Assembly (NCBI GenBank): GCA_020831585.1
Contig: JAFIGE010000043.1
Span: 1-34,803 of the forward strand
Direction: 5' to 3'
Length of the DNA: 34,803 bases
Source: Opitutales bacterium
GTDB lineage: Bacteria > Verrucomicrobiota > Verrucomicrobiia > Opitutales > Oceanipulchritudinaceae
In this document: piece after piece, positions 6,710 to 34,803 of the stretch
Position numbering within the stretch: the stretch's first letter is position 1
Layout: each line of letters opens with the position of its first letter
Program-made: the position numbers and the translations under genes
The notes under the pieces: generated by a model
Seen by the model: only the letters and a program-made list of their open reading frames with translations
Database searches by the model: none
Told to the model about the DNA's origin: nothing

Positions 6710-6774
6710 GAGGTATGATTCGACGGTTGCGATGGATCGTTGGGCACGGTCGAGCGACGGTTCGGGTTGACTCT

Positions 6775-6800: not shown

Positions 6801-6852
6801 CGTGGATAAGGTTATTAACCCATCGTTATTGAAGCCTCATCAAGGGAGTCTA

Positions 6853-7877: not shown

Positions 7878-8180
7878 ATGATAAGTTATTCTGAAGAGAA
7901 TGGGGCCTTGGAAGTGGTTGTGAATGTGGCCAGTTTTGACGCCTCCAATGCAGCTTCCATCAAGGAGCGCTTCCGCGAGCTGAGCGAAATCAAGCCAGCC
8001 AAGCCGGTGCGTGTGGACCTGTCGGCGGTCGATTTTATCGATAGCAGTGGCATTGGGGCGCTTCTTAGCCTGTTTAAGGCGACGAATCAAAATCTCACCC
8101 TTGTGAAACCCAAGCCGGCGGTCGTGAGCGTGCTTGAACTGCTCCGTCTGCACCGCGTTTTCCCGATCGAGGCCGAGTAA
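7878..8180 (+). CDS. STAS-domain anti-sigma-factor-antagonist-like protein
   Basis: The 100-residue product is a single STAS domain. VRVDLSAVDFIDSSGIGALL contains the conserved DSSG motif with Ser56 and Ser57, the phospho-acceptor position in SpoIIAA and RsbV proteins. These are phosphorylated by RsbW-type kinases and dephosphorylated by SpoIIE/RsbU-type phosphatases, and bind partners only when unphosphorylated. Both enzyme types occur in one protein encoded at 24715-22997. No sigma factor or separate anti-sigma factor gene lies nearby; the next gene downstream, after 16 nt, is a glycosyltransferase with its own STAS domain. A role in controlling polysaccharide synthesis is inferred from that context. 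Confidence 0.88.
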   Translation: MISYSEENGALEVVVNVASFDASNAASIKERFRELSEIKPAKPVRVDLSAVDFIDSSGIGALLSLFKATNQNLTLVKPKPAVVSVLELLRLHRVFPIEAE

Positions 8181-8196
8181 CGAGGGTCTAAACGCC

Positions 8197-9360
8197 ATGT
8201 CCGCGAACTCGTCCGGATCGTCGGTGAGACCTGAGCCGGAGGTAGCTTTTCTTCTGGGGCTCCCGTTTCACCGCATGACCATGGGGGAGACGGTGGCGGA
8301 GTGTGTGGCTGTCGTGGAGGCGGGCGAACCGCGCTATTTTGTTACGGCGAATGCCGATTTTGTCGCCCAAGCCTACGAGAACGAGCGCCTCCGGGAAATC
8401 CTCATCCATGCTCACCGCGCGGTCGGCGATGGCATGCCCCTGGTGTGGCTCTCGCGCCTGTTTCCGCCGCGCCTTCCCGAGCGGGTGGCGGGCTCGGATC
8501 TGGTCTTTGAACTTTTCCGCGAAGGCAATGAACGGGGCTGGCGCTTTTTCTTCCTCGGGAGCGATGAGGCGACCCTCACAACTGTCGGGGACATTCTCGC
8601 AAAACGCTATCCGGGCATGACCGTGGCGGGCAGCTTTTCTCCCCCGTTTGCCGCCGTCGACGATTGGCCCAACGAAGAGATCGCCCAGCGGATCCGCGCG
8701 GCCCGTCCGCATGTCCTCCTCGTCGCGGTGGGTTGTCCGAAGCAGGAGTATTGGATCGCCCGCTACGCCCGTGATTTGCGGGTGCCGCTCGCCATCGGCA
8801 TCGGGGCTTCGCTTGATTTCATCTCCGGGCGGCAGGTGCGCGCCCCGCGCTGGATGCAGAAGACGGGCCTGGAATGGATCTGGCGCATGGGCACGGACCC
8901 AAGTCGCCTTGTCGCGCGCTACTGGAAGGATTTTCGCTACCTTTTCCGCCTCGGTTTTTTGCAGTGGCGTTTGACCCGTCGCGGGCAGGCGCGGGTGCTC
9001 GATCTGGGGGTGGGCGCGGCGAATTTCACCTCGCCGGTATCCGGTGTTGAGCCGCTCTGTTGGGTCGGCACGGTGGAGGCGGCCAACCTTGATCTGCATG
9101 CGCTCCCGGCCGAGGGGGCAGGCCCGGTGCTCCTCGATCTCTCCGATGTGACCTTTATGGACAGCGCGGGTATCGGGCGGCTCCTCCAGGTCGTGCGGCA
9201 GTGCCGCGAGGCAAAGCAACCTTTGGCCCTCCTGCGGCCCTCTCCGCAAGTGCGCAAAATCATTGCCGCTCTGCGCCTCGAAAGCCAGTTGCCGATGATT
9301 GAAAAGGCGGAGGATTTCCCTCCGCGCGCACCCGCCGAAGATGGCTTAAACGCCCCATGA
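8197..9360 (+). CDS. WecG/TagA/CpsF-family glycosyltransferase fused to a STAS domain
   Basis: The 387-residue product has two parts. Residues about 20-270 are a GT26 enzyme: YFVTANADFVAQAY with Thr50, AVGDGMPLVW with Asp78 (both matching conserved active-site positions of TagA-type enzymes), FFFLGSDE, VAVGCPKQEYW, and GASLDFISG. These transfer an N-acetyl-mannosamine-type sugar onto a lipid-linked first sugar at the membrane. Residues about 285-375 are a STAS domain with LLDLSDVTFMDSAGIGRLL; Ser323 follows the conserved Asp, while the second Ser of the free STAS protein is Ala. The start at 8197 was chosen because GAGGG lies ten nt upstream and the longer frame overlaps the STAS gene. The gene overlaps the next GT4 gene by four bases. 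Fusion of the two domains is unusual and suggests direct regulation of the transferase. Confidence 0.88.
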   Translation: MSANSSGSSVRPEPEVAFLLGLPFHRMTMGETVAECVAVVEAGEPRYFVTANADFVAQAYENERLREILIHAHRAVGDGMPLVWLSRLFPPRLPERVAGSDLVFELFREGNERGWRFFFLGSDEATLTTVGDILAKRYPGMTVAGSFSPPFAAVDDWPNEEIAQRIRAARPHVLLVAVGCPKQEYWIARYARDLRVPLAIGIGASLDFISGRQVRAPRWMQKTGLEWIWRMGTDPSRLVARYWKDFRYLFRLGFLQWRLTRRGQARVLDLGVGAANFTSPVSGVEPLCWVGTVEAANLDLHALPAEGAGPVLLDLSDVTFMDSAGIGRLLQVVRQCREAKQPLALLRPSPQVRKIIAALRLESQLPMIEKAEDFPPRAPAEDGLNAP

Positions 9361-10514
9361 AACCCTCTCCGCCAAAAGTTCTTCTCTCGGCCGGAATGAT
9401 CCAGGGCGGGCTCTCCGGGGTGGGGCGCTACGTTGTCGAAATCGCCCGCCGCCTCGGACCGGAGCCGACCCTTTCGCTCCATGTGGCGGGGCTCGATGCG
9501 GATCGCACGCTTTTTCCGACCGTGCCCGATGAGCGCTGGATTTCCCTTCCGCCGCGCTTTGGCAAGGGAGCGGCCAATCTTCTCTGGCATTTCGGCCCGC
9601 TGCGCGGGATTCTCCGCCGGGGCGGCTTCGATCTTTATCATTCGCCCAGTTATCGCCGTATCATGCCCGCTTGTCCGGTCCCGCAGATCGCGACCATTCA
9701 TGATTGCGCGCCCTTTCATCTGCGCGACAAATACGGGGCCGCGCGGGGCTTTTTCGGGCGTATTCTTGTGCCCGTACTGGCCCGCCGCTGTCGCCATGTT
9801 CTCACCGTGAGTCATTTTACGGCGGGCGACATTGAGCGGTTTTTCAAGATTCCGGCAAGCCGCCTGACCGTCATTCACAACGGCCTCGACCATAGCCGCT
9901 ACCGCCCCTTGTCGGAGGAGGACCTGGGCGCCTTTCGCGAGCGCGTGGGGGTATCCGCGCCCTACCTCCTTTACCTCTCCCGTCTCGAACACCCGGGCAA
10001 AAACCACGTGCGCCTGATTGAGGCTTACGACCGCGCGCGCGCGGCCGGCACCCTCGACTCTCCGCTGGTCCTCGGCGGCGCACCCTGGCACGGAGCGGAG
10101 GCGATTTACAAGCGGTCGGCGGCCTCGCCCTACAGCGCCGACATTGCCCTGCCCGGATTTATCGACGAGGCCGACTTGCCCTATTGGTATGGAGCAGCCC
10201 GCGCTCTCGTCTTCCCCAGCCTCATTGAGGGCTTCGGTCTGCCCGTGGCCGAAGCCATGGCCTGCGGCACACCTGTTCTCAGTTCCGATCGCGGAAGCTT
10301 GCCCGAGGTCGGGGGTGACGCTGCGCTCTATTTCGACCCTACCTCGGTCGAGGAAATGGCCGCCGCCCTCCTCACCTTCGCCGGGCGCACACCTGCGGAA
10401 GCGCAAGCTTTTCGCGAAAAGGGCTTCACCCAGGCAGGCCGTTTCCACTGGGACCTCGCTGCTCAGGCTACCGGTGCGGCCTACCTGCGCAGCGTTTCGC
10501 CTTCAACGGTATGA
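9357..10514 (+). CDS. Family 4 glycosyltransferase
   Basis: The 385-residue product is a GT-B retaining glycosyltransferase. Seen in order: GGLSGVGRYVVEIARRL acceptor loop, LYHSPSYRRI, ATIHDCAPFHLRDKY, VLTVSHFTAGDI, the inter-domain HNGLD, YLLYLSRLEHPGKNH opening the donor domain, and EGFGLPVAEAMACGTPVL with the E-x7-E pair at Glu291 and Glu299. Mannosyl- and related transferases share this layout; the donor is not readable. The ATG overlaps the stop of the GT26-STAS gene, and its own stop overlaps the pyrophosphatase start, so three genes are tightly coupled. It acts in the cytosol on the lipid-linked intermediate, by inference from its neighbours. Confidence 0.9.
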   Translation: MKPSPPKVLLSAGMIQGGLSGVGRYVVEIARRLGPEPTLSLHVAGLDADRTLFPTVPDERWISLPPRFGKGAANLLWHFGPLRGILRRGGFDLYHSPSYRRIMPACPVPQIATIHDCAPFHLRDKYGAARGFFGRILVPVLARRCRHVLTVSHFTAGDIERFFKIPASRLTVIHNGLDHSRYRPLSEEDLGAFRERVGVSAPYLLYLSRLEHPGKNHVRLIEAYDRARAAGTLDSPLVLGGAPWHGAEAIYKRSAASPYSADIALPGFIDEADLPYWYGAARALVFPSLIEGFGLPVAEAMACGTPVLSSDRGSLPEVGGDAALYFDPTSVEEMAAALLTFAGRTPAEAQAFREKGFTQAGRFHWDLAAQATGAAYLRSVSPSTV

Positions 10515-12181
10515 ACGGTTCGGCGGAAAACGGGCGTGCACGCGCCCACTTTGTCGTCGGGCACCGCAATCCGGACACGGACGCGATTGTCTCGGCCCAC
10601 GTCCTCGCGTGGATGCACCGTCAGCAAGCACCCGCCTCCCGCGCGCTCCCCGTTCGCCTCGGGGAAGCCAACCGGCAGACGGCCTGGCTCTTTGAAACCG
10701 CCGGCATCCCCCTCCCGGCCTTGCGGGGATCTTGCCTCGCACAAGCCGCCGAAATTGCGCGCTCCGCCCCCGTGGTCGATCCCGACACCCCCTTGCGCGA
10801 AGCCCTCGAAGCGATCCAGCGCACCGGCGCACCCTGCGCTGTCGTCTGCGATGAAAACGGCGCGCCCCTGGGCATCGTCAGCGACCGGCACCCGCGCACC
10901 AACTACCTCCTGCAATGCAATGTGGAGGATTTTTTTGGAACGCTTCTGGAGTTTGGCCACATCATCCGGGGGCTCCCACTGGAGGCCCTCAATGGCGGCC
11001 CGCCCCCTGCTCCGCAGCACCTCGAGGTGGTCATCCACAAACACACCTTCGCGGGCCGGTGGGATCCTGCTTCGGCGCTTGTCCTGGGTGACCGAGATCT
11101 CCTGCTCGAAGTTCTCCACCGCAACCCGCCCGCAGCCGTCATCCTGGCCGGGGTGGAGCGGGCGCGCGCGCGCGAAATGGCCGCGCAGCTCCCTTGCCCG
11201 GCCTTTCTCTTCAGCGGCTCCGTGATCAACCTGTGCGCCCGCCTGCCGGGTTGCCTGCCTTGTTCGGCGGCTCTCGAAAACGACTTTGTGACCGTGGCAG
11301 CGGAGACCGATCTCGCCGTCCTTGAACGAAAAGTCCGCGCCCAGCCGCTTGGGATCCTTGTCACCAACGCGTCCGGTCGTCTCGTCGGGGCTATCTCCGC
11401 CGATACCCTTTTGCATGCGCCGCAACCCCTCCTCAGCCTCGTCGACCATAGCGAACGACGCCAGAGCATCGGTGGCCTCGAGCGGGCCGAAATCCTTGAG
11501 ATCGTCGATCATCACCGCCTTGGCGATATTGAAACCGATGCCCCTATCGCCATCGATGTGCGCCCCGTGGGTTCCACCGCGACAATTCTCCGCGCCCGCG
11601 CCGCCGCCGCCGGGCTTGCCCTGCCGCCGGAGATCGCCCAAATTCTCCTCGGCGCGCTCATCAGCGATACGCTCCTCCTCACCTCTCCCACCACCACCAC
11701 CCGGGATACCGCCGCCGCCGCCGAACTGGCAGCCCTCGCCGACCTCGACCTGCGCACCTTCGGGCTCGCTGTTCTTCGCCAGAACGATGAACTCAAGACG
11801 ACTTCCCCGGACAACCTCGTTGCCCGCGACTGCAAGGAGTTTGCCCACGGCGACATTACCTTTCTCCTCGCCCAGATCGAGACAACCGATCTCTCCGTGC
11901 TCGACCGCAACCAGGCGGTCGATCTGCGCCGGAGCCTCCTTGCGCGCGTGCGCACCCACCACGCGACTTTTGGGATTTTGCTGGTGACCGATGTCCTCGC
12001 GGGAAGGAGCGAACTGATCCCCGCCGCCGATGATACCTGCTGGGAAGACGTCCTGCGCCCCGAGAGAGGAAACGGCCATGGCCGGGATGAAACGCCTTGG
12101 GTCATCGAGGGCATGGTTTCGCGCAAAAAACAACTGCTGCCCCTTCTCCTTGGTGCCTTGCGGGCTCGCGAGTCTGCTTGA
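10511..12181 (+). CDS. Family II (DHH) Mn-dependent pyrophosphatase with CBS and DRTGG insert
   Basis: The 556-residue product has the DHH-type pyrophosphatase core split by a regulatory insert. GHRNPDTDA at residues 17-25 supplies His18, Asp22 and Asp24; after the insert come Asp312-His313 and the DHH triad at 333-335; the C-terminal DHHA2 part holds SRKKQ at 537-541, a substrate-binding signature. The insert has a CBS repeat (about 78-130), a DRTGG-like domain (about 175-255) and a second CBS repeat (about 255-305). CBS-containing enzymes of this class are controlled by adenine nucleotides. It hydrolyses pyrophosphate, which would pull nucleotide-sugar synthesis forward. It overlaps the preceding GT4 gene by four bases, so its expression is tied to polysaccharide synthesis. 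Confidence 0.9.
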   Translation: MNGSAENGRARAHFVVGHRNPDTDAIVSAHVLAWMHRQQAPASRALPVRLGEANRQTAWLFETAGIPLPALRGSCLAQAAEIARSAPVVDPDTPLREALEAIQRTGAPCAVVCDENGAPLGIVSDRHPRTNYLLQCNVEDFFGTLLEFGHIIRGLPLEALNGGPPPAPQHLEVVIHKHTFAGRWDPASALVLGDRDLLLEVLHRNPPAAVILAGVERARAREMAAQLPCPAFLFSGSVINLCARLPGCLPCSAALENDFVTVAAETDLAVLERKVRAQPLGILVTNASGRLVGAISADTLLHAPQPLLSLVDHSERRQSIGGLERAEILEIVDHHRLGDIETDAPIAIDVRPVGSTATILRARAAAAGLALPPEIAQILLGALISDTLLLTSPTTTTRDTAAAAELAALADLDLRTFGLAVLRQNDELKTTSPDNLVARDCKEFAHGDITFLLAQIETTDLSVLDRNQAVDLRRSLLARVRTHHATFGILLVTDVLAGRSELIPAADDTCWEDVLRPERGNGHGRDETPWVIEGMVSRKKQLLPLLLGALRARESA

Positions 12182-12198
12182 GTTTGCCCCCTTTTTCC

Positions 12199-13416
12199 AT
12201 GTCCACCTCATCACCCACGCCCCTGAAAGTCTGCTGGCTCCACGAAAAACGCGGCGCCCAGGGTGGGGCGGAGGCCAACGTTCTCGAAACCGCCCTCGCC
12301 CTGCGTGCCCGCGGTTTTGAAAACACCCTGGCCCACCGCGAAACCACGGGGGTGGATGAAGCGCGCTGGGATGAGGCCTTTGCCGGGAGTGTCCACATTC
12401 CGCCGGGGACCCCCGCCGCGCCCCTCCTCGCCCACACCGGGGCCGATCTCTTGTGGATTCACAACTGGAACCACAGCGAGGATTTCGAGAATCTGCGCGC
12501 ACTCGGGCGGCCGCGCGCGCGCATGATCCACGATCACGCCATGTATTGTATGCGGCACTACAAATACCATCCGCTGACCCGCCGCAATTGCACCCGCCCC
12601 GCCTCCCTTGCCTGCATTTTTCCGTGCCTTGCGCCCGTGCAGCGGGGAAGCGGCCGCTGGCCCCTGCGCCTCGCCAGCTTTTCCGCCAAGCTTCGCGAAA
12701 TCGCGCACAACCGCAGCCTCGACCGCCTCGTTGTCAACTCCACCTTCATGGAGGGTGAGCTGCGCAAAAACGGCTTTTCTCCGGAGAAAATCGACGTCCT
12801 TCCGCCCCTCCCGCCCGAGCGCGCGCTCCCCGCCGGCCTCGCCGCAACCCCCGCTGAGCCGGGGCATCTCCTCTTTGCCGGTCAGGTCATCCGGGGAAAG
12901 GGCCTCGATCATCTCCTCCAAGCCCTCCACGGTCTTTCCGGTGACTGGAGCCTGACTGTGGCCGGGCGCGGTTCCGCTCTCGACAAATGCCGCGCCCTTG
13001 CCAGCCGCCTCGGGCTCGACGAGCGCATTGAGTGGCTCGGGCACCTCAGTCCGGAAGAACTGGCCCGCCAATACCGCCGCGCCGCTCTCGTCGCCGTGCC
13101 CTCTGTCTGGCAGGAACCCTTTGGTATGATCGGCATCGAGGCCATGCGGCACGGGCGACCCGTCGTTGCCTATGCCTCCGGGGGTATTCCGGAGTGGATG
13201 CGCGACGGCGAACACGGCCGCCTTGTCCCCACGGGCGATATCCCCGCCCTCCGCGCGGCCCTCGTCGAACTCCTCGCCGACCCGGCCCGCCTCGCGGTCT
13301 GCGGTGAGCGCGCGCGTGAATGGGTGCGTGCCCACTTTTCCTTTGAGGGCTACATAGACCGCCTCGCCGACCGCCTGCGCGCTTATTCCTTGTCATTCAG
13401 GAAGGAGCGTGGGTAG
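12199..13416 (+). CDS. Family 4 glycosyltransferase
   Basis: The 405-residue product is a third GT-B enzyme. It has WLHEKRGAQGGAEANVLE at the N-terminus, IHDHAMYCMRHYKYHP followed by a Cys-rich stretch (NCTRPASLACIFPC), VVNSTFMEGEL, then the donor domain with LLFAGQVIRGKGLDHL and QEPFGMIGIEAM with Glu306 and Glu314. The Cys-containing loop after the HDH motif recurs in a subset of GT4 enzymes of polysaccharide loci. The ATG at 12199 was preferred to earlier in-frame starts because those codons overlap the pyrophosphatase gene and read as antisense-like sequence; it is preceded by the pyrimidine-rich GCCCCCTTTTTCC, not by a Shine-Dalgarno sequence. Donor and acceptor are unknown. Confidence 0.88.
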   Translation: MSTSSPTPLKVCWLHEKRGAQGGAEANVLETALALRARGFENTLAHRETTGVDEARWDEAFAGSVHIPPGTPAAPLLAHTGADLLWIHNWNHSEDFENLRALGRPRARMIHDHAMYCMRHYKYHPLTRRNCTRPASLACIFPCLAPVQRGSGRWPLRLASFSAKLREIAHNRSLDRLVVNSTFMEGELRKNGFSPEKIDVLPPLPPERALPAGLAATPAEPGHLLFAGQVIRGKGLDHLLQALHGLSGDWSLTVAGRGSALDKCRALASRLGLDERIEWLGHLSPEELARQYRRAALVAVPSVWQEPFGMIGIEAMRHGRPVVAYASGGIPEWMRDGEHGRLVPTGDIPALRAALVELLADPARLAVCGERAREWVRAHFSFEGYIDRLADRLRAYSLSFRKERG

Positions 13417-13427
13417 TTTCCCTGTCC

Positions 13428-14291
13428 ATGAACGACCGGCCCCTGGAGCATTTTGGTCTAAAGGCGCGCCCCTTCGAAATCGTTACTGATCCGCGTTTTT
13501 TCTACGCCAGCCGCGCACACGAGGAGGCGCTCGCGCGTCTGCTGTATTTGGTCGATCAGGAATCCATGTATTTTGGCATGCTCACCGGGGAGATCGGGGC
13601 CGGTAAATCGATCACCCGCCGCGTCTTTGGCGAACGCATCAACCGGCGGCGGCACTATGTTGTCGAATTTGAAAACTCCGCCTTTTCTTTCGGCGAGCTC
13701 ATCCGGAGGCTCCTCGCCAAGGCCGGTTATGAACCCGCCGTGATCCCCCCGGCAGATGAGATGGCCGCCCTTTTTCAGGCCGTTGCTGATCTCGCCTCGG
13801 CCCTCGGGCGTGAACAGGGGCGGCAACTTGTTCTCCTCTTCGATGAGGCCCAGGATCTCGGCCGGACCGAGCTGGAACACCTCAAGCGCCTCTCCAATCT
13901 GAACGGCGAAATCGAGGGTCGCCTCACTTGCGTGCTCATCGGGCAACCGGAGTTGCGCGCCCAGGTGGCGGCCCTGCCGGCCCTTGACCAGCGCGTGAGC
14001 CTGCGCTTTCATCTGGGCCAGCTCGGGGAAGACGAGGTCGCCCCTTACCTCGGCAACCGCCTGCGCGTGGCCGGTCATGTCGATGGCAAGCTTTTCGACG
14101 AAGCCGCCGTGGCCGCCCTCTATGCCGCCAGCGGAGGGGTCCCGCGCGAAATCAACCGCCTTGCCAAACTCGCCCTCGATGCGGCCGCCTCCAGCGCCAA
14201 GGCACCGATCGGGAAAGACGAAGTGGCCCGGGTCATCAACGATTTGCGCGAACACCAATCCCTCCCGTCCCTCCAACCCTTTGCCCGATGA
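13428..14291 (+). CDS. ExeA/XrtA-associated-type AAA ATPase
   Basis: The 287-residue product opens with HFGLKARPFEIVTDPRFFY, the usual N-terminus of ExeA-like ATPases, then Walker A GEIGAGKS at 54-61 with Lys60, Walker B LVLLFDEAQDL with Asp139-Glu140, and a sensor-like CVLIGQPEL. The C-terminal helical part has SGGVPREINRLAKLAL. Closely similar ATPases accompany exopolysaccharide loci of the PEP-CTERM/exosortase type, where they sit beside the Wzz-like protein. That is so here: its stop overlaps the Wzz-like start by four bases. I infer that it powers or regulates chain-length control or export at the inner membrane. A general-secretion ExeA role is less likely because no secretion genes are nearby. 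Confidence 0.85.
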   Translation: MNDRPLEHFGLKARPFEIVTDPRFFYASRAHEEALARLLYLVDQESMYFGMLTGEIGAGKSITRRVFGERINRRRHYVVEFENSAFSFGELIRRLLAKAGYEPAVIPPADEMAALFQAVADLASALGREQGRQLVLLFDEAQDLGRTELEHLKRLSNLNGEIEGRLTCVLIGQPELRAQVAALPALDQRVSLRFHLGQLGEDEVAPYLGNRLRVAGHVDGKLFDEAAVAALYAASGGVPREINRLAKLALDAAASSAKAPIGKDEVARVINDLREHQSLPSLQPFAR

Positions 14292-16357
14292 GCGAACAAC
14301 CTCCTTTGCGTGTGAGCGACTGGAAGCGCGGCGAGTCTTCTTCGTCGGGGAAAGATCCCGGACCCCCGCCGCCGCCCCGCCCGACTTCTGGCCAACCTCC
14401 GCCCGCAGGCTCACCGCCCCCCCCCCCGCCATCCGGCAAGCCCCCGCCCGCTGATCCGGCGACCAAGCCGCCCCCCGCCTCCGGTTTTCCGCTCCCCAGG
14501 ACGGTCTTTTTCGGCTTTGACCTTCTCCGTCTGCCCATGGGCCTTCTCCGGCGTTGGTGGCTCCCGGTTCCACTCGCGATCCTCGGCCTGCTCCTGGGCA
14601 TCCTTGCCGGGCGGGCTCTCTTTGAGGTTCAGGCCACCACCTCCGCCCGCCTCATGGCCCGTGACCCCGAGGCCTTTGCCGCCAGCCGCACGGCTTACAC
14701 GCCCTCGCGCATTCAGGGAGCCACGCTCCTTCAGGCTCTCGCTGGGCCCCAGGTGGCGGATGCCGTGGCCGCGCGCCTCGGGTGGGAGCTTTCCGCACGG
14801 GAAATCGCCGATATGGTCAGCGTGCAGGAAGTGCGGCGGACCGACTTCGTCGAAATCATTGTCCATGGCCCCCTCACCGCCGGGCAAGCCGCCACCCTCG
14901 CGCAAGTCTGGGCGGAGGAAGCGATCGCCTTCACCAGTTCCCTGCAGGCGCGGGAGAGTGCCGACCTGCGCCTGCACCTGGAGGAGCAGCGCGAAGCCAA
15001 AGACCGCGAACTGGCCGCCACCAATGCCCGCATCGCCGCTCTCCGCGAAGACACCGGGGTGATTGATGCACAACGCGAAATCGAGGCCTACCTGCGTTCT
15101 CTTTCCGGGCACAACGAGGAGTTTGAGTCCAACCGCGTCGACCTCGATGCGCTCGATTTTCAACTGGCCGCGCTCCGCCGGGAAATCCGCAAGCACAGCC
15201 CCGGCTTTGAGGAACTAAAGGCAGAGGAAGCGCGGCTGGAGGAACTGGCCGAGTACTACACCGAGCAAAATCCGCTCTTCCGCGACGCGCAGGACCGCGT
15301 GGAGGCTCTGCGGCGACGGGTTTTGCGGGGCCTCGAGGCCGAGGAGATCGAATTTTCCGAGTTTACCGGGACCTATGTGGGCAACGCCCTCTACCTGCAA
15401 ATCCTGGAATTGGAATCGCGCCGGAAAGCCCTCCTCCTGCGCCAGGAGAAGCTTGAAGCCCTCCGCGCCTCCGCACGCGAGCGTCTTCGCGGCCTGCCCG
15501 ATGTCGCCCTTGAGGCCGGTCGCCTCATGGAGAGCGCCCAATCCCTCCGCGCGTCCCGCGATGCCCTCGCCAACCGCCTGCAGGAGGTCGCCAGTTTTGA
15601 GGAGCGCGCCCCCGGTTATTATCGCATTTTCCGCGTTCCCTCGGCACGCGATGTCTATGTCGGCTCAAACACGAAAAAGCTTCTCTTCCTCGGCGTCTTC
15701 GGAGGGGCGGTTTTTTTCGGCCTCGGTTTGCTCGGGGCCGGGGTCTTGGAATTCTTCGATGGCACCCTCCGCACGCCCGCGGAAGCAGCGGAAATCTTCG
15801 CCACCTCCGCGATTGGGCGCGTTTCCCCTCAACCGGCCTCCACTCCCGCCGCTGAAGCCCTCACCGCGCAAGATCTCTGGGCGCGCGTTCTCGGCCCCCT
15901 TGAGTCCGGACGCACCCGTGTCTTCTGGTGCCCCCAGATCCACCCGGCAGAGGACCGCTTCTGGGAACGCATGGCCGCCGCCGCGACGGCTCTGGGGATA
16001 CGCCCGCTTGTCTTCCACACGCCCGAATCCGCCGTCGCCTCGTTGGAGGTCTATGCGCCTCTTGAGGATGGGCCACCGGAGGACGCCTCCGTCGACACCA
16101 CTCCCCGCCGCCGCCTCTGCACACCCGCTGATCTGAGTTTCCCGCTTCCGCGCGAAGGGGCTTTGCGGGCGGACTTTCCCGAGATCTGGGTGGTTCTCCA
16201 TGGCCCGGTCCGTGAGCCCATGGGCAAACTGCTCCGCCAAGCCCCCGACCTCTTTATTCTCTGCGCCCTCGACCACACGGAAAAGAGCTTTTGGCACCTG
16301 CAGGCTTCTCTGCTCCGCGAGCCCGGCAACCTCCGCGGCCTCGTCGGGCTCGGTTGA
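14288..16357 (+). CDS. Wzz/GumC-type chain-length determinant with a P-loop-less kinase-like tail
   Basis: The 689-residue product has a proline-rich cytosolic N-terminus (about 22-66), a first membrane helix at about 91-112, and a long periplasmic region with coiled coils (LRLHLEEQREAKDRELAA, ILELESRRKALLLRQEKLEA). A second membrane helix lies at about 465-489, followed by a cytosolic domain from about 530. This is the topology of inner-membrane polysaccharide co-polymerases that set chain length. The C-terminal domain follows the order of a bacterial tyrosine-kinase domain (strand VFWCPQIHPAEDRFWERMA where Walker A would be, later FPEIWVVLHGP and DLFILCALDHTEKSF), but has no GxxxxGKS/T. It has no Tyr cluster at its end. 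I read it as a catalytically inactive remnant. The gene overlaps the ATPase gene by four bases and closes the operon. Confidence 0.85.
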   Translation: MSEQPPLRVSDWKRGESSSSGKDPGPPPPPRPTSGQPPPAGSPPPPPPSGKPPPADPATKPPPASGFPLPRTVFFGFDLLRLPMGLLRRWWLPVPLAILGLLLGILAGRALFEVQATTSARLMARDPEAFAASRTAYTPSRIQGATLLQALAGPQVADAVAARLGWELSAREIADMVSVQEVRRTDFVEIIVHGPLTAGQAATLAQVWAEEAIAFTSSLQARESADLRLHLEEQREAKDRELAATNARIAALREDTGVIDAQREIEAYLRSLSGHNEEFESNRVDLDALDFQLAALRREIRKHSPGFEELKAEEARLEELAEYYTEQNPLFRDAQDRVEALRRRVLRGLEAEEIEFSEFTGTYVGNALYLQILELESRRKALLLRQEKLEALRASARERLRGLPDVALEAGRLMESAQSLRASRDALANRLQEVASFEERAPGYYRIFRVPSARDVYVGSNTKKLLFLGVFGGAVFFGLGLLGAGVLEFFDGTLRTPAEAAEIFATSAIGRVSPQPASTPAAEALTAQDLWARVLGPLESGRTRVFWCPQIHPAEDRFWERMAAAATALGIRPLVFHTPESAVASLEVYAPLEDGPPEDASVDTTPRRRLCTPADLSFPLPREGALRADFPEIWVVLHGPVREPMGKLLRQAPDLFILCALDHTEKSFWHLQASLLREPGNLRGLVGLG

Positions 16358-16933: not shown

Positions 16934-16942
16934 GCCTCTTTT

Positions 16943-17938
16943 TCAGTGCCGTTTCACAGCTGACACGATTGCCTCGGAATCCGCCCCGCCCGCCTCAACA
17001 ACCGCTTTGGCTTTCCTTCCCCTCCGATAGCCCAGCCAACCATTCGCCGCACAGAAGCTCTCCACCCACGCAAACGAACCGACCACCCAGCTCTCGCTGA
17101 AAGCGCGGATCTTCGAGAGAAGCCGCGATCCCTCGGTCACACCGACTCCCTGCCTATCCTTACCCTCCGCCTCCCCGGAAGGTCTCTGGTCGGCTAGCCG
17201 GCGAGGACGCTCTCCCGGGCCCATGCGGCTGCACAAACGCGCCCGGTAGCGCTCATGCCATTGGGTCGTCCAGGACGGCTTGCCCTCGACCCGCGCGATC
17301 CCCCGTCGTGCGGCCGACTCACCCGCGCAGGCCTCCCCAAAACCACTGAAAGTATAGTCGGCGGCCTCCTCGACCAATCCTGCCCGCACCGGGTTCAAGT
17401 CGATATACGCCGCCACCATTCTTTGCGCCTCTGTATCCGCCTCCACCACAACGCTGCGGAACCGCTCCGCCCAGAAAGTCCCCACCGTGCCGTGTTTCCG
17501 GTTATACCACAGGGTAAAGCGCGTCTTCACCTCCCGCATGAAGACCGAGACCTCGCTCATCCGCGCCTTCAGGCGTCGCCGGATCCCCTCCGCGGAGTTT
17601 CTGTTCTTCGCCAGAATCACCTCCAGCTCCTCGGCCTTCAAGCCTACCGAAGCGCAGCGCGTTGCACCATAGAGCGCCCGAAAGCGCCGGACCAGACTGG
17701 CGTCATCCAGATTCTCTGTTTCCTTCGGATCGAGCCGCACGAAGATGTGAAAGTGATTGGCCAAAAAGCAATACGTCAGCACCTCCATTCCCGCAAACGC
17801 CGCCTGCGAGCGCATTATCTGGCGCATGGCCTCCATCGCCTCCTCATCCATCAGCATCCTCTTCTGCACCACCCTCGAAATCAGGTGATGGCACGCCAAA
17901 CGCGGATACCTCAATCTCCGACAGTATTTCCTGCTCAT
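16943..17938 (-). CDS. REP-associated tyrosine transposase (RAYT, Y1/IS200-like)
   Basis: The 331-residue product is an HUH-type Y1 transposase. The metal-binding HUH pair is His62 and His64 in ANHFHIFVRL, and the catalytic tyrosine is Tyr178 in AAYIDLNPVRAGL, a block typical of RAYTs. TVGTFWAERFRSVVVE precedes it. The C-terminal 120 residues beyond the core are basic and unassigned, longer than minimal IS200 transposases. The ATG at 17938 was preferred because MSRKYCRRLRYP starts the conserved domain; an in-frame ATG at 17992 would add 18 residues from an AT-rich leader. Neither has a Shine-Dalgarno sequence. RAYTs nick and mobilise palindromic repeats in trans rather than moving as an ordinary insertion sequence. 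A full repeat of this type abuts its 3' end. Confidence 0.9.
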   Translation of the reverse strand: MSRKYCRRLRYPRLACHHLISRVVQKRMLMDEEAMEAMRQIMRSQAAFAGMEVLTYCFLANHFHIFVRLDPKETENLDDASLVRRFRALYGATRCASVGLKAEELEVILAKNRNSAEGIRRRLKARMSEVSVFMREVKTRFTLWYNRKHGTVGTFWAERFRSVVVEADTEAQRMVAAYIDLNPVRAGLVEEAADYTFSGFGEACAGESAARRGIARVEGKPSWTTQWHERYRARLCSRMGPGERPRRLADQRPSGEAEGKDRQGVGVTEGSRLLSKIRAFSESWVVGSFAWVESFCAANGWLGYRRGRKAKAVVEAGGADSEAIVSAVKRH

Positions 17939-18039
17939 TTCGCAATCCAGCCCACAATTAAAAGCCAAAGTCAAGATAAATGTTCTGAACATTTAATTTT
18001 TTGGACTGACCAAATCGAGCTGGAAGCGGGATGAGTGCG

Positions 18040-19581: not shown

Positions 19582-19787
19582 AAGAAGACTCGTGAGCAAG
19601 CATCACGGCCTGTTTTCGGCCGCAAGAACTCCAAGGTCTACGCATCCCACCGGATAAGCCAACCGAAATTGTGCACGGACGCCTGCGGAGGATAAGGGGG
19701 AGGTGCCGAAGATAGATCGGTGGAGTTTTGGAGTGACCGTTGGTTCTGAATTGCGCGTTGGGTTTTGTTGCGTCATGAACTCTTGGA

Positions 19788-20918
19788 ATGGGTGAATGTC
19801 TTTATTTTCCGGATCGCCCGGCGGAGGTGGATTCGCGGGCGGGCGAGGGGGCGTCCTTGGCGGCGTTGCGCGGGCGGATTGATGGTTACCTCTCTTGGCT
19901 GAGGAAAGAAGCCGCGGGCCTCACGGGGCTGAGGGGGCTCCTTCTCGGGGGCGGCTATGGTCGCGGGGAAGGTGGCGTGTGGTGGCCCGCCGGGGAGGCG
20001 GCACCGGAGCTTTACAATGATATGGAATTCTACCTCTTCGCCGCTGGCGTGGCTCCGGGTGTAGTGGATAAGTGGATACATGAAGGGGAGGCGCGGCTGG
20101 GCATCGAAATGGAGTTCAAGGTGATGGCCCCGGAGGCTTTCGCGGGCGCGCGACCGAGTATGTTTTATTACGATCTGCTCAAGGGGCATGTGCGCGTGGC
20201 GGGGAGCGCGGAGTGGGTCGCGGGTTTGCCCGGGCAGCTTTCGGAGGCGGCACAGATTCCCGTGGAGGAAGGATCCCGCTTGCTCGTGAACCGCGGTATG
20301 AGCCTTTTCCGGTGCCTGCGCTGGAGCGCGGGGGAAGGAGAGGGGGAGGGTGTTTTTTGCGACCGCATAGCAGCCAAGCTGCGCATGGCTTTAGGCGATG
20401 CCGTACTCTGCTTGAATGGGCGCTACACCGTCTCCTGCCGGGAGCGGAATGCGCGTTTGAGCGAAGTCCGGAGGACGCCGCCGGATTGGCCCGTGATCCG
20501 GGAGGGGCACGCGGAGGGGGTTGTCTTCAAGTTTCGTCCGTCGGCTTCGGGGCGTTCGGCGGCGGATTGGCAAGGGCCGCTGCGGGAGCTGCAGGCGATT
20601 TGGCTGCGCACCTTCCTCTGGCTGGAGGGGGAGCGGCTGGGGACGACCTTTGCTGATGCGCGCGCTTATACGGCTTATTCCGGGCGGCTCTTTCCGGAGG
20701 AGGCGGCCTGGAAGAATGTGCTTCGGCAGGTGCGCGATCTGCGCCGCCCGGTGCGGTTGCCCTTCAGCGGGGGCGAGCACCCGCGCGCGCGGGTCTGGCG
20801 GGCCATGGCTTTTCTCATGGCCGGTGACGCGGCGGGGGCGCAGGCCCAGTTGGGCGTCCGGCTGGAGGGGGCGGCCCTTGAGGAGGCCTGCCGCGCGGCT
20901 TGGAAACACTATCCTTAA
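19788..20918 (+). CDS. Nucleotidyltransferase-like protein of polysaccharide locus, function unknown
   Basis: The 376-residue product has LLLGGGYGRGEGGV (about residues 51-64) followed 13 residues later by YNDMEFYLF. This resembles the glycine-rich turn and acidic strand of the Pol-beta-type nucleotidyltransferase fold, with Asp78 and Glu80 where the metal-binding carboxylates would be. A third carboxylate may be Glu109 or Glu111 in IEMEFKVM. The C-terminal two thirds are helical with no motif I recognise. It starts a three-gene plus-strand group with a GT2 (22 nt downstream) and a GT8-like gene, so a part in glycan synthesis or modification is inferred. There is no strong Shine-Dalgarno sequence. 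I cannot name a substrate. Confidence 0.65.
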   Translation: MGECLYFPDRPAEVDSRAGEGASLAALRGRIDGYLSWLRKEAAGLTGLRGLLLGGGYGRGEGGVWWPAGEAAPELYNDMEFYLFAAGVAPGVVDKWIHEGEARLGIEMEFKVMAPEAFAGARPSMFYYDLLKGHVRVAGSAEWVAGLPGQLSEAAQIPVEEGSRLLVNRGMSLFRCLRWSAGEGEGEGVFCDRIAAKLRMALGDAVLCLNGRYTVSCRERNARLSEVRRTPPDWPVIREGHAEGVVFKFRPSASGRSAADWQGPLRELQAIWLRTFLWLEGERLGTTFADARAYTAYSGRLFPEEAAWKNVLRQVRDLRRPVRLPFSGGEHPRARVWRAMAFLMAGDAAGAQAQLGVRLEGAALEEACRAAWKHYP

Positions 20919-20940
20919 AGCAGACACACCTTCATCAACA

Positions 20941-22011
20941 ATGCACCTGGTAATTGGCATACTGGCTTGGAATGAAGAGAGTTCGATCGGTGGGACGATC
21001 CGTAGCCTCGCCGCGCAAACGCTCTTTCGTGCGATAGAAAAGATTGGCGCGACGGTCGAGGTGATCGTCGTTCCCAATGCCTGCACCGACCGGACAGCGG
21101 AGGTCGCGGAAGCGGCGCTGGAGAAACGGGTGCGTATTCATCCGGGCGCGACGGCCCGGGTGGAGAGCCTGACCGAGGGGGGGAAGTCGAATGCCTGGAA
21201 TGAACTGGTCCATCGCTTCGCGCCGGAAAAGACGGACTATTTTATCCTCATGGATGCCGACATTGAGTTGCTCGGGGAGGATACTCTCGAACGGATGTGG
21301 AGCACTCTGGAGAAGGACGCGCACGCCCACATTGCCACCGACCTGCCGGTCAAGCATGTGGCGCGGAAGGCGCGGCTTTCGCTCAAGGAGCGTTTCCTCC
21401 TCGGTGCCGGAGCGATGACCCAATCGGCTCCGGGGCAACTCACCGGGCAGCTCTATTGCGCAAGGGCCGGGACCCTTCGCAAAATCCGGATTCCGCGCGG
21501 GCTCATTGTCGACGACGGCTTTATCAAGCAGATGGTCTGCACGCTCGGGTTCAGTGAGCCGGCGGATGCGTCGCGGATTGTTCGGGCGGAGGGGGCGGCG
21601 CATGTCTTTGAGTGCTACACGCGTCTGCGCGATATCTGGAATCACCAGGTGCGGCAGGCCGTGGGGCATACGCTCTACACCTATTTCACGGCCTACATTC
21701 GGGCAAACATGCCGGACCGGCCGATCTTCGGGCAGCTCAAGGCCCTTTGTGAGACGGAGCCAGACTGGTTTGCCCGGTTTGCCCGCGAGGAGATCGGGCG
21801 ACGGGGATTCTGGGTCATGGACCGCTCTTCCTTCTGGGTGCGCTGGCGACGGGCAAAGGCTGCCCGGGGCGCGCGCAAACTCCGTTTTCTGGCTCTCGCG
21901 GCCGCTGCCACCCCTTTTGATGCGGCCGTTTTCTATGCCTCCAACGCCCGTCTGAAGAGCGGGCGCGTAAACAGTATCTGGAAAGACACCCGCACCACCA
22001 CCGTCTCATGA
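20941..22011 (+). CDS. Family 2 glycosyltransferase
   Basis: The 356-residue product is a GT-A family 2 enzyme: LVIGILAWNEESSIGGTI at the N-terminus, VVPNACTDRTAEVAE, the metal-binding FILMDADIEL with Asp105 and Asp107, and a DDGFIKQM acidic motif for the catalytic region. The C-terminal 130 residues contain basic and aromatic helices (FWVRWRRAKAARGARKLRFL) that may lie on the membrane; no clear transmembrane helix is present. The ATG at 20941 directly follows a leader ending CACCTTCATCAACA with no Shine-Dalgarno sequence; the longer open frame overlaps the previous gene antisense-like. It overlaps the GT8-like gene by four bases. Confidence 0.88.
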   Translation: MHLVIGILAWNEESSIGGTIRSLAAQTLFRAIEKIGATVEVIVVPNACTDRTAEVAEAALEKRVRIHPGATARVESLTEGGKSNAWNELVHRFAPEKTDYFILMDADIELLGEDTLERMWSTLEKDAHAHIATDLPVKHVARKARLSLKERFLLGAGAMTQSAPGQLTGQLYCARAGTLRKIRIPRGLIVDDGFIKQMVCTLGFSEPADASRIVRAEGAAHVFECYTRLRDIWNHQVRQAVGHTLYTYFTAYIRANMPDRPIFGQLKALCETEPDWFARFAREEIGRRGFWVMDRSSFWVRWRRAKAARGARKLRFLALAAAATPFDAAVFYASNARLKSGRVNSIWKDTRTTTVS

Positions 22012-22619
22012 AAACTCCTCCCAAGACCGCCTTTTGCACGATCGTTGTGGGCAAGCCTTACCAGGATGCCTTCGACCGCTATTGCCGTGGCCGCTTCGAG
22101 CGCTACGCCGCCCGCCATGGGTATGACCCGATCATCCTCACGGAGCCCGTGCGCGAGCTGCCGGGGCGCAAGTTTACGTGGCAAAAGCTCTGCCTCCCGG
22201 ATCTTCCCTGGTGGCGCGACTACGAGCAGGTGGCTTTTATCGATGCCGACATCCTGATCGCGCGGGACGCCCCGCCTTTACCCATTATCGCACCGGGCAA
22301 GATCGGCGGTGTGCCCGACAAGCTGCCCTATCAGATCAATAGTGGTGTGCTTGTCTACCATCCGGACGAGGCCATCAAGGCGCTCTTCGATGAGGCTTTG
22401 CTCGATGAGGATCCATTTTGGGACCAGCGCGCCCTCACGCGTGTGATGCTCTATCGCAACATGGAGAAGCTCATCGACGCGCGCTTCAACCGGCAGTTTT
22501 ACTTCAAGTGCTGGACGCTCTGGAGTTCCCTCTTCCGTCGGCAATGGTTCTACCATGCCTGCCACGGGAAGATCAAAATGCCCTTTATTCACGCGTGGCT
22601 ACGGCTGACTTTCCGTTGA
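22008..22619 (+). CDS. GT8-like (nucleotide-diphospho-sugar) transferase
   Basis: The 203-residue product has AFCTIVVGKPYQDAF at the start, the DxD motif in VAFIDADILI (Asp79 and Asp81), YQINSGVLVYHP, and a late HACHGKIKMP that fits the metal-binding HxxGxxKPW-like motif of GT8 and related enzymes, though with Met-Pro in place of Pro-Trp. At 203 residues it is shorter than typical GT8 proteins (about 250-300), but start, DxD and the C-terminal His motif are all present, so it appears complete. It is translationally coupled to the upstream GT2 through ATGA. Its 3' end overlaps the convergent receiver gene by 21 nt. Confidence 0.8.
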   Translation: MKTPPKTAFCTIVVGKPYQDAFDRYCRGRFERYAARHGYDPIILTEPVRELPGRKFTWQKLCLPDLPWWRDYEQVAFIDADILIARDAPPLPIIAPGKIGGVPDKLPYQINSGVLVYHPDEAIKALFDEALLDEDPFWDQRALTRVMLYRNMEKLIDARFNRQFYFKCWTLWSSLFRRQWFYHACHGKIKMPFIHAWLRLTFR

Positions 22620-23000
22620 GTTTGCGACCTTGTTATCTTCTGCAAAAAACTCCTCAACAAGGGTGATAACGCGGCGCGGGCTGAAGGGTTTGGCAAGAAG
22701 GCGGGCGTTTTCGATCTGCCCGATGCGCGCGAGGATCCCTTCCTCCATCTCACCGGTGACAAAAATGGTCGGCATTTGAGGCTTACCGAGAAGATCGCGC
22801 AGGGCATGGGAGAGGTCCGCTCCGTTCAGCCCCGGCATGTTGTAATCGAGAATCGCGAGATCGGGATCGATGCCCTTGGCACGACCGAGGGCCTCCTCGC
22901 TGTTTTGGAAATAATAGGCGCTGTAGCCGGACCGACGCAACTGCACTTCGTAGAGCCGGATCATCACAACATCATCATCAACAACCAGAATTCTTTTCAT
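22599..23000 (-). CDS. Stand-alone response-regulator receiver protein
   Basis: The 133-residue product is a single CheY-like domain: acidic DDD at residues 8-10, phospho-acceptor Asp52 in AILDYNMPGLNG, the conserved Thr in TIFVTGEM and Lys in LLAKPFSP. No output domain follows, only a short polar tail. It is the last gene of the minus-strand signalling operon, and its ATG overlaps the stop of the HATPase-SpoIIE gene. A receiver directly coupled to an RsbU-type phosphatase could gate that phosphatase or be the end point of the phosphorelay from the upstream kinases. That is inference. The leader is pyrimidine-rich without a Shine-Dalgarno sequence. Confidence 0.9.
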   Translation of the reverse strand: MKRILVVDDDVVMIRLYEVQLRRSGYSAYYFQNSEEALGRAKGIDPDLAILDYNMPGLNGADLSHALRDLLGKPQMPTIFVTGEMEEGILARIGQIENARLLAKPFSPRRVITLVEEFFAEDNKVANSTESQP

Positions 23001-24715
23001 AGGGAAGGGGTAAGGCGAGTGAGAACAACAAGGGTTTCGTCGTCGCGGTTGGCCGGGTTACCGGACGCGCGGGAAAGGCTGTGGAACTCCTTGATGAGCT
23101 CGGCGGGGGATTGTTTGGCGCGCGCCTTCAGCCAATCCACGAGAGCCTCCCATCCGAACATTTCGCCGTCTGGACGGGTCCATTCAAAGAGGCCATCGGT
23201 GACGAAGAGGCAGCGGTCACCGGGATCGAGAGCGAGGTTTTGCGCCTCAAATTGATGGCCGCGAAAGAGACCGATAGGCGGGTTGAGCGCGCCGATTTCC
23301 TCATGGCGTCCGTTGGCCCGGAGCACAATGACCGGGGGGTGACCGGCGGAGGCGAGGCGAATAGAACCGGATGCGGGATCGAGGCGGAAGACGATGGCGG
23401 TGATGAACATTGTCTGCCGGTTCAATTGGCGTTCCAGGCTTTCGTTTATGTGTTCAAGGAAAGCCCCGGGGTCGGTGTGGGTGCGGGCGAAGCCAAGGAA
23501 GTGACTGCGGAAAATCCCCGCGAGGATGGCCGCCGTGACCCCCTTGCCCATGACGTCGATAATGCAGCCAACGAGGGTGCCACGGGTGGCCGGACGGATT
23601 TCCGCAAAGTCGCCCGCGACCTCCTGCGCGGGATCACAGCGGACAAAGAGCTGCCAGCCGGGAACCTCCGGCGGAGCCGTATCGAGTGGCAGGAGTTGTT
23701 GCTGAAGTTGCGTGGCGATGCGCCATTCATGGCGCACGCGGTCGCGCTCCGCCCGCTCCCGGTCCATGATGGAACGCGAAAGGGCCAAACCGAGGATATT
23801 GGCGACGGCCTGTATTTGCCGCACCTGCCGGGATCCGAGGGACTCACCTCCTGAGGTTTGGCCAACGGCAAGGAGGGCGACGGTGGTTTCGTTGTGGCGG
23901 ATGGGCACGAAGCAACCCTCGGGATGCCACTCCCGCCCATTTTGGAAGCAGGACGGCTGGCCATCCCCGTCTTTCCAGAGGAGGTAGGGATTTTTGGCCA
24001 ATGCCTGCCATACCGATGACCGGGCTTGGCCATAGCGCTGAAAGGCGGTGTCGCGGGCGATCGCGGTCAACTCGGGGAGTTGGGAATCGGGGGCCGTCTC
24101 GACATGGATGTGTTTGGCGTGTCCGCATTCGAGAAAGAGGCGCACTGTCGAGCGGTAGCAGTCGAGAAAAGTGGCTCCCCCGGCAACGGCCTGGCCCAGT
24201 TGATCGTAGAGGGCGAGGTTTTCGTAGCTATCGGCCAACTCATCGAGGATGAGTTCCATGGAGGGATCTTCCGGAGAGACCTCGGGCAGATCCGGATAGG
24301 TCTTCCAGACACGGGCACGGTAGCCGGAGGGCCCCCGCCAGTGCTCCCAGCCGTCGACAAAGGAACGGATGAGAAAAAGCCCGCGTCCACCTTCCGAGAG
24401 CGGATCTTCCGGAAGGTCGGCTTCGGCGGCGCAGGCGGGATCGGGCCCCTCCCCGGGGTCGGCCGTTTCGACAAAGACCGAGGAACCCTCGCTCCACCAC
24501 ACGGCGAGGAGCACGGCCTCTTTGCGGCCCTGCGCACCGTGGTTAATGGCGTTGGCGAGCAGTTCGGTGAAGATGAGTTTCCAGCCTTCAATCTCCTGAT
24601 TCTGGAGACGCAGACTTTCCAGAAACCTGACAAAGCGCTCGCGAAGCGGCCCAATCTCCCGGAGATCGGGGCCGAAGCGGGCTTTGAGAGCCTGGGTTTT
24701 GCGGAAGCTGGGCAT
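22997..24715 (-). CDS. RsbW-like kinase - GAF - SpoIIE/RsbU-type phosphatase fusion
   Basis: The 572-residue product has three parts. Residues about 20-140 are a GHKL ATPase of the anti-sigma-factor kinase type: ELLANAINHG (Glu51, Asn55), ADPGEGPDP with Asp86, and SEGGRGLFLI at 108-117. Residues about 180-315 look like a GAF domain. Residues about 340-570 are a SpoIIE/PPM phosphatase: EVAGDFAEI, DVMGKGVTAA, SAGHPPVIVL, VTDGLFEW and DDETLVVL keep the metal-binding Asp residues. In RsbW/RsbU systems such domains phosphorylate and dephosphorylate a STAS protein; here both lie on one chain. Two STAS domains are encoded at 7878-9360. It is cytosolic, with no membrane helix. It sits 33 nt after the receiver-phosphotransfer gene. 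Confidence 0.92.
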   Translation of the reverse strand: MPSFRKTQALKARFGPDLREIGPLRERFVRFLESLRLQNQEIEGWKLIFTELLANAINHGAQGRKEAVLLAVWWSEGSSVFVETADPGEGPDPACAAEADLPEDPLSEGGRGLFLIRSFVDGWEHWRGPSGYRARVWKTYPDLPEVSPEDPSMELILDELADSYENLALYDQLGQAVAGGATFLDCYRSTVRLFLECGHAKHIHVETAPDSQLPELTAIARDTAFQRYGQARSSVWQALAKNPYLLWKDGDGQPSCFQNGREWHPEGCFVPIRHNETTVALLAVGQTSGGESLGSRQVRQIQAVANILGLALSRSIMDRERAERDRVRHEWRIATQLQQQLLPLDTAPPEVPGWQLFVRCDPAQEVAGDFAEIRPATRGTLVGCIIDVMGKGVTAAILAGIFRSHFLGFARTHTDPGAFLEHINESLERQLNRQTMFITAIVFRLDPASGSIRLASAGHPPVIVLRANGRHEEIGALNPPIGLFRGHQFEAQNLALDPGDRCLFVTDGLFEWTRPDGEMFGWEALVDWLKARAKQSPAELIKEFHSLSRASGNPANRDDETLVVLTRLTPSL

Positions 24716-34745: not shown

Positions 34746-34749
34746 GCGA

Positions 34750-34755: not shown

Positions 34756-34803
34756 TGAATTTGCCCGCTCACCGTTGCCGCCCTGCTCCCTTTGCCAGCC
34801 AGC

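Follow-up and report, generated by a model that had tools for sequence, protein, structure and literature searches.

A candidate kinase–phosphatase partner switch beside a STAS-bearing glycosyltransferase in polysaccharide loci of Verrucomicrobiota

Partner switches of the RsbU/RsbV/RsbW and SpoIIE/SpoIIAA/SpoIIAB type are normally used to control gene expression, but related systems act without a sigma factor. In the symbiosis polysaccharide locus of Vibrio fischeri, SypE combines a serine kinase and a PP2C phosphatase in one protein with receiver-domain input, and its substrate SypA is a single-domain STAS protein that is phosphorylated at Ser56 (PMC3610818, PMC10120452, PMC8256260). The target of the SypA-type STAS proteins that govern biofilm polysaccharide is described as unknown. 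In the SiaABCD, HsbA/HsbD and BgrV/BgrR systems the output is an enzyme (SiaD, HsbD, BgrR), biofilm or polysaccharide is controlled, and phosphorylation of the STAS or STAS-like protein decides (PMC8457831). Furthermore, Anabaena all4160 is reported to be a glycosyltransferase with a STAS domain that is required for heterocyst envelope polysaccharide (Wang 2007, as cited in PMC8256260 and PMC4390870), and Rv1364c of Mycobacterium tuberculosis carries RsbU-, RsbW- and RsbV-like domains in one protein. Here we compare these systems with a locus of an Opitutales bacterium (Verrucomicrobiota), analyzed as a window of 34,803 nucleotides (contig JAFIGE010000043.1 of assembly GCA_020831585.1).

A preliminary description of this window had pointed to a free STAS protein, a STAS-tagged glycosyltransferase and a protein with both RsbW-like kinase and RsbU-like phosphatase domains, in a polysaccharide locus without a sigma factor. 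This observation was confirmed, as all three reading frames are open. The first (7878-8180, forward strand) encodes a free STAS protein of 100 aa (Pfam STAS, E 2.9e-16) with the predicted phosphoacceptor Ser56 (codon 8043-8045) in the motif IDSSGIG; the serine is conserved in 29/29 free STAS homologues, and the protein resembles SpoIIAA/TM1442. The second (8197-9360, forward strand) encodes a protein of 387 aa with a GT26 (WecG/TagA/CpsF) glycosyltransferase domain (Glyco_tran_WecG, PF03808, E 7.3e-56) fused at its C terminus to a STAS domain (STAS_2, E 5.6e-12). The GT26 part matches the TagA fold (7mpk, Foldseek E 2e-17) and its catalytic core and Arg-rich tail are intact: T50, D78, Q183, R230 and R237 are invariant and R215 is invariant or nearly so. 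The fused STAS domain (9043-9303, about aa 283-369) carries D322-S323 at 9160-9165 and matches RsbV and SpoIIAA from the kinase complexes 6m36 and 1th8. We found this fusion in dozens of genomes, many of which carry tandem STAS domains on it in addition to the free one.

The third frame (22997-24715, reverse strand), subsequently named KP, bears an N-terminal RsbW-type HATPase (24323-24670; HATPase_c_2, PF13581, E 4e-17, with no HisKA hit), a middle domain with GAF-like predicted secondary structure and a C-terminal SpoIIE/RsbU-type PP2C phosphatase (23015-23578; SpoIIE, E 7.1e-44). The kinase residues of the N, G1 and G2 boxes, E51, N55, D86, G88, G90 and G110-R-G112, and the metal-binding PP2C aspartates D369, D387, D507, D558 and D559 are invariant among homologues. 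KP is the only strong HATPase_c_2 hit in this genome. PDB entry 3ke6 (Rv1364c) matched the phosphatase domain. However, the structure model of KP has low confidence (pLDDT 75, pTM 0.49) and was used for no more than a hint about the middle domain.

No sigma-factor domain was found among the 30 window ORFs scanned with Pfam, and the nine Sigma70_r2 hits of the genome all lie on other contigs. The scan did reveal regulatory genes that the preliminary description had not mentioned. A single-domain receiver gene (22599-23000, reverse strand; Response_reg, E 1.2e-19), with the phosphoacceptor Asp, Thr and Lys present, overlaps the KP stop codon; in the following, G and L numbers denote genomes of our survey, and a homologue lies next to KP in G048, G098, G213, G284, G425, G043, G024, L067, L069, L085 and the L064 contig. 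Two hybrid histidine kinases are found in the same block. The first (25902-29168, reverse strand; PAS-GAF-HisKA-HATPase-REC), a candidate input to the receiver, is conserved in G098, G213, G425, L064 and L065. The second (31128-34772, reverse strand), a candidate second input, has a phosphonate-binding-type periplasmic domain (Phosphonate-bd, E 1.6e-38) and histidine-kinase domains, with homologues in L064 between Bac_transf and STAS. A receiver plus degenerate histidine-kinase-like protein (24749-25939, reverse strand; Response_reg) lies upstream of KP and is conserved beside it in G048, G098, G213, G425, L065 and L264.

A hexapeptide transferase and a priming sugar-phosphate transferase (Bac_transf), together at 29161-31109 on the reverse strand, head the KP operon, and this pair neighbours KP in most polysaccharide-type loci. 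Downstream of the fusion, the operon (9357-13416, forward strand) continues with a GT4 glycosyltransferase (9357-10514), a DHH-CBS-DHHA2 protein (10511-12181) and a second GT4 (12097-13416); a GT4b homologue lies next to the fusion in most loci examined. A Wzc/chain-length-type protein of the polysaccharide machinery (14288-16357, forward strand) gave only a match below cut-off to the NCBIfam XrtA chain-length determinant (E 2e-11), with a homologue near the fusion in G048, G098, G213, G024 and L085. A phosphodiesterase-like protein, a GT2 and a GT4 (together at 442-3760, reverse strand) belong to the KP operon in relatives, where they are located just downstream of KP (and receiver) in G048, G284, G425, L067, L069 and others.

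In order to test whether this grouping could be due to chance, we surveyed other genomes. Ten have both the fusion and a window-type KP, and nine of these have them within 35 kb, at 2.3-34 kb apart, an arrangement far beyond chance (P about 1e-15 under random placement); as related genomes are not independent, this P is indicative only. KP, or its phosphatase part at a locus edge, is also in the fusion contig of L064, L065, L066, L067, L069, L072, L079, L085, L086, L088 and L096 and in genome G265. At least 20 loci show the two together. These counts leave out G353, where a HATPase hit lies near the fusion without a confirmed phosphatase domain, and L080, where a KP lies on a contig bearing the same number as that of the fusion but without confirmed identity to it. 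An operon with the priming transferase, hexapeptide transferase and KP, often with receiver and phosphodiesterase genes, is divergent from STAS ... GT26-STAS-GT4 in G284, G425, G098, G213, G048, L065-L067 and the L064 relative; L065 is Cerasicoccus frondis, a cultured isolate with the locus. A two-by-two table of fusion and KP across the phylum gave 8/17 versus 27/371 (P 3e-5); however, it rests on a search that scored three candidates per genome, counts only window-type KP and undercounts others. In contrast, the presence of any RsbW-type kinase was uninformative as a marker, since 20/22 fusion genomes and 17/22 fusion-less genomes have one; such kinases are common in the phylum and mere co-occurrence in a genome is weak evidence.

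The co-occurrence has exceptions. Full-length KP is found somewhere in about 30 of 36 fusion-bearing genomes, whereas 5-6 show none, a condition that had been named beforehand as a refutation of the proposed switch and that thus holds for a minority. One of these genomes (L081) has also lost the phosphoacceptor serine, but others (L073, L089, L091) keep it, and G354 has KP 6 kb away but an Ala at the aligned serine position. Full KP-STAS-receiver units also occur away from polysaccharide genes and without a fusion beside them (a second copy in G425, G018, G377, G043 C7 and G024 C106), so the module has other outputs. Four loci (G264, G330, G380 and G029) have KP with the priming transferase but no fusion nearby.

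Next, we examined the putative phosphosite. Across 31 aligned fusions, D322 and S323 are the only invariant residues of the STAS domain. In the wider set, Ser is present in 45/47 first and 32/33 second STAS domains of the fusions, but in 0/16 SulP-type STAS domains from the same genomes. We also asked whether the parts form a closed set. In the five genomes examined (G000, G048, G098, G213 and G284), KP is the only HATPase_c_2 hit better than 1e-10. Each has only two region-3 sigma factors, and the smaller one matches RpoD/RpoS models best and falls below the SigBFG cut-off in the two genomes tested (G000 and G213); no SigB/F/G-type sigma factor was found in the five. The distances of kinase, free STAS and fused STAS stay correlated after controlling for the GT26 domain (partial r 0.25-0.36), but this support is weak, as shared inheritance could produce such signals.

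We consider it more likely than not, though by no means settled, that the locus encodes a SypE/SypA-like partner switch whose direct client is a lipid-linked-sugar glycosyltransferase. In this view, the two hybrid histidine kinases feed the receiver protein, which sets the balance of KP between kinase and phosphatase activity. KP would phosphorylate and dephosphorylate the free STAS protein at Ser56 and, by the same recognition, the fused STAS domain at Ser323. The phosphorylation and binding state of that domain would turn the enzyme, probably the second step after the priming sugar transferase, on or off at the membrane, so that polysaccharide synthesis is gated after translation; the free STAS protein would either compete for KP or relay to another target. 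Our analysis establishes the anatomy of the locus, its intact active sites, the conserved co-location, the invariant phosphoacceptor serine and, for the five genomes examined, the lack of another strong RsbW-type kinase or of a SigB/F/G-type sigma factor. In contrast, binding of KP to either STAS domain, phosphorylation of Ser323, its effect on the enzyme, polarity, receiver input and competition are inferred from sequence and gene context. The interpretation put forward in the preliminary description is therefore only partly supported: the three parts form a conserved unit without a sigma factor and the glycosyltransferase is the best candidate for the output, but its proposal that the free STAS protein competes with the enzyme for the kinase domain is not shown. 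The boldest version, a switch widespread in Verrucomicrobiota that gates exopolysaccharide synthesis by serine phosphorylation of the fused domain with free STAS as competitor, appears about as likely as not.

The alternative that survives best, although it remains only a possibility, is a variant of this model and does not exclude it: KP could have two separate clients without competition, with free STAS controlling another step (for example transcription or c-di-GMP) and the fused STAS controlling the glycosyltransferase in parallel. The data fit equally well with two such substrates, and the tandem STAS domains on many fusions as well as the free STAS in loci without a fusion are in line with it. 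However, no second target is encoded consistently next to the free STAS gene; the genes between STAS and the fusion are polysaccharide-type or unknown genes. Less likely, free STAS is the only regulated client and acts on an unknown target as SypA does, while the fused STAS is a passive docking or dimerisation module that places the enzyme in a membrane complex. The KP-STAS-receiver units without a fusion beside them, the fused STAS of G354 and the finding that a free STAS protein suffices in V. fischeri (PMC10120452) speak for this reading. On the other hand, a passive module would not need an invariant phosphoacceptor, yet Ser323 is invariant in 31 fusions while the rest of the domain diverges, and SulP-type STAS domains in the same genomes do not keep Ser. 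A classic switch, in which KP is an anti-sigma factor, free STAS its antagonist and the polysaccharide genes the regulon of a sigma factor encoded elsewhere, is improbable: the domain types of KP, the resemblance of free STAS to SpoIIAA/TM1442 and the sigma factors elsewhere in the genome speak for it, but it does not explain the fusion, the sigma-factor survey of five genomes described above argues against it, and ECF sigma factors are not known RsbW targets. Finally, it is equally improbable that the fused STAS binds a nucleotide, lipid or another locus protein and that co-location only reflects the tendency of polysaccharide loci to collect regulators since, although STAS domains of other families (SulP, MlaB) serve non-kinase roles and some fusion genomes lack KP, the invariant D-S motif and the close co-location with an active-looking kinase/phosphatase speak against it.

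The suggestion of the preliminary description that this may be an undescribed regulatory system is too strong in view of the systems introduced above, although literature searches for a GT26/TagA-STAS combination found no description. SypE/SypA is the same kind of switch, with free STAS and kinase/phosphatase in a polysaccharide locus without a sigma factor. However, in SypE the receiver is the central domain, whereas KP shows no receiver domain and the receiver is a separate, overlapping gene; moreover, for SypA the target is unknown, while here a candidate target is written into the genome as a fusion, near its kinase/phosphatase, in many genomes. This makes the question whether a partner switch can gate an enzyme of polysaccharide assembly testable with four soluble or peripheral proteins and a specific residue, Ser323. 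In SiaABCD, HsbA/HsbD and BgrV/BgrR the enzyme is a diguanylate cyclase regulated by a separate STAS-type protein; here the STAS domain is covalently part of a glycosyltransferase. In all4160 the STAS domain is N-terminal, and no kinase/phosphatase partner is described in the accounts cited here. The RsbU/RsbV/RsbW and SpoIIE/SpoIIAA/SpoIIAB systems share domain types and catalytic motifs with the locus, but here kinase and phosphatase are in one chain and no SigB/F/G-type sigma factor was found in the genomes examined. Rv1364c has a different domain order and no glycosyltransferase, and TagA/TarA and WecG share the catalytic fold and residues of the GT26 enzyme but lack its C-terminal STAS domain.

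The three genes named in the preliminary description are intact and located where it had placed them, so that its observation held: the free STAS protein is encoded at 7878-8180, the GT26-STAS fusion at 8197-9360, and a protein with an N-terminal RsbW-type HATPase domain and a C-terminal SpoIIE-type PP2C phosphatase domain (KP) at 24715-22997. In addition, a single-domain receiver gene (22599-23000) overlaps the KP stop codon, and two hybrid histidine kinases and a receiver/kinase-like protein lie in the same block. One hybrid histidine kinase (31128-34772) has an N-terminal part that matches a phosphonate-type periplasmic binding domain; homologues lie in the same locus in L064, the closest relative of the window found (a Puniceicoccaceae MAG with a 70% identical fusion; L numbers denote GT26 loci from named genomes, G numbers surveyed genomes of the phylum). 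The surrounding genes are glycosyltransferases, a priming sugar transferase, a hexapeptide transferase, a pyruvyl transferase and a chain-length-type protein. No sigma-factor domain was found among the 30 window ORFs scanned. Just upstream of the STAS gene lies a gene for a lectin-like protein with a C-terminal PEP-CTERM-like tail (6586-7830); the homologous locus of genome G048 encodes an EpsH-type exosortase. Furthermore, we found a zeta-toxin-like gene with a Phd/YefM-like antitoxin gene overlapping upstream (5650-6674).

In order to assess whether the encoded proteins could be active, we compared their catalytic residues with those of homologues. In KP the N, G1 and G2 boxes of the kinase and the aspartates of the phosphatase are invariant among homologues. 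The GT26 part has the TagA fold and keeps the catalytic residues and tail. The structure model of the fusion is confident (pLDDT 89, pTM 0.88), and its STAS domain matches RsbV and SpoIIAA chains taken from complexes with their kinases.

Next, we asked whether the grouping of these genes could be due to chance, which is not the case. A search of 388 genomes of the phylum for the fusion and for KP, in which the survey of fusion-less genomes for KP used a narrower profile and a candidate limit, and inspection of the gene neighbourhoods gave ten genomes with both the fusion and a KP of the window type, counting G024 and G043 from an earlier survey. In nine of them the genes lie 2.3-34 kb apart, whereas in the tenth (G043) they are on different contigs. 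Independently, 80 GT26 loci from named genomes included 36 fusions. KP, or its phosphatase part at the edge of the stretch, lies in the same contig as the fusion in L065, L066, L067, L069, L072, L079, L085, L086, L088 and L096, and also in L064 when its contig was followed further; G265 adds one more. The preliminary description had named fusion-bearing genomes without the kinase/phosphatase as evidence against its interpretation: genome-wide, about 30 of the 36 fusion genomes have a full-length KP, but some fusion genomes lack it. One of these is the gammaproteobacterium Luteimonas panaciterrae (L073, 9938-12166), which carries a GT26-STAS-STAS fusion with an extra C-terminal domain and whose genome shows no KP, possibly reflecting horizontal spread. 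PP2C phosphatase genes lie near fusions more often than near plain GT26 genes (10/36 versus 2/44, P 0.005), and so do free STAS genes (11/36 versus 2/44, P 0.002), although the genomes are related and P values therefore overstate independence.

The arrangement of the genes is conserved as well. In G284, G425, G098, G213, G048, L065, L066 and L067 one operon reads priming transferase, hexapeptide transferase, (hybrid kinase, receiver/kinase), KP and, in most of them, receiver, phosphodiesterase, (DHH-CBS protein), GT4 and GT2. This operon is divergent from STAS, unknown protein, GT4, GT26-STAS and GT4; in G048, G098 and G213 other genes lie between the two blocks. The window has the same genes but rearranged, and an IS200-like transposase gene (16943-17992) lies in the middle of the locus, in the part that is rearranged relative to L064. 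A DHH-DHHA2 protein with inserted CBS domain(s), resembling CBS-regulated pyrophosphatases, is encoded at 10511-12181 and is conserved in several of these polysaccharide loci (44-61% identity in relatives). However, a unit of KP, receiver and divergent free STAS also exists alone, away from polysaccharide genes, in G425 (second copy), G018, G377, G043 and G024. The fusion therefore looks like an add-on client of a general switch. Other combinations of the parts were also observed: in G024 (contig C99, 5770-8415; L035) one protein of 881 aa joins a GT4-like part, GT26 and two STAS domains, and in a Chlorobiaceae MAG (L142, 2689-14027) a GT26 gene without STAS sits among two PP2C, two STAS and two RsbW-type kinase genes plus a priming transferase, i.e. 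a polysaccharide locus with unfused partner-switch parts.

We then examined the predicted phosphoacceptor. In 31 fusions the only invariant residues of the STAS domain are D322 and S323. Ser is present in 45 of 47 first and 32 of 33 second STAS domains of fusions and in 29 of 29 free STAS proteins. As a control we analyzed 16 STAS domains of long SulP-type proteins from the same genomes, which keep the Asp, but none of which has Ser. The serine is thus not needed for the fold, and its conservation points to phosphorylation. Of the exceptions, L081 lacks both the serine and a full-length KP, while G354 has Ala at the aligned position although KP is 6 kb away.

In order to find out which other proteins could act in such a switch, we searched for further kinases and sigma factors. 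In G000, G048, G098, G213 and G284 KP is the only HATPase_c_2 match better than 1e-10. These genomes have two sigma factors with region 3; the second, tested for G000 and G213, matches RpoD/RpoS models and falls below the SigB/F/G cut-off. The usual target of such a kinase was thus not found. Soluble STAS proteins are few. A STAS protein of roughly 190 aa (motif MDSTFLG) next to a SpoIIE-type phosphatase of 480-500 aa recurs across the phylum, for example in G213 (contig C1, 1364185-1366120) and G000 (contig C193, 31281-33239).

The best reading of these data is a SypE/SypA-like switch with a direct enzyme client, in which histidine kinases would act on the receiver, the receiver on KP, KP on the STAS domains and the fused STAS domain on glycosyltransferase activity at the lipid-linked step. 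Our analysis establishes the anatomy of the locus, whereas every step after the anatomy, including phosphorylation, is inferred. The interpretation in the preliminary description, namely that the output is the polysaccharide enzyme itself and that the free STAS protein competes with it for the kinase domain, is partly supported: competition is possible on present evidence, but parallel substrates are as likely.

The combination seen here, a covalent STAS tag on a GT26 enzyme with its kinase/phosphatase in the same locus across Verrucomicrobiota, was not found in the literature searched, although related systems have been described. The nearest is SypE/SypA (PMC3610818, PMC10120452), for which the target of SypA is unknown. 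SiaC/SiaD, HsbA/HsbD and BgrV/BgrR (PMC8457831) show that partner switches can have enzyme outputs, and Anabaena all4160 (cited in PMC8256260) shows that glycosyltransferase-STAS proteins exist and matter for polysaccharide.
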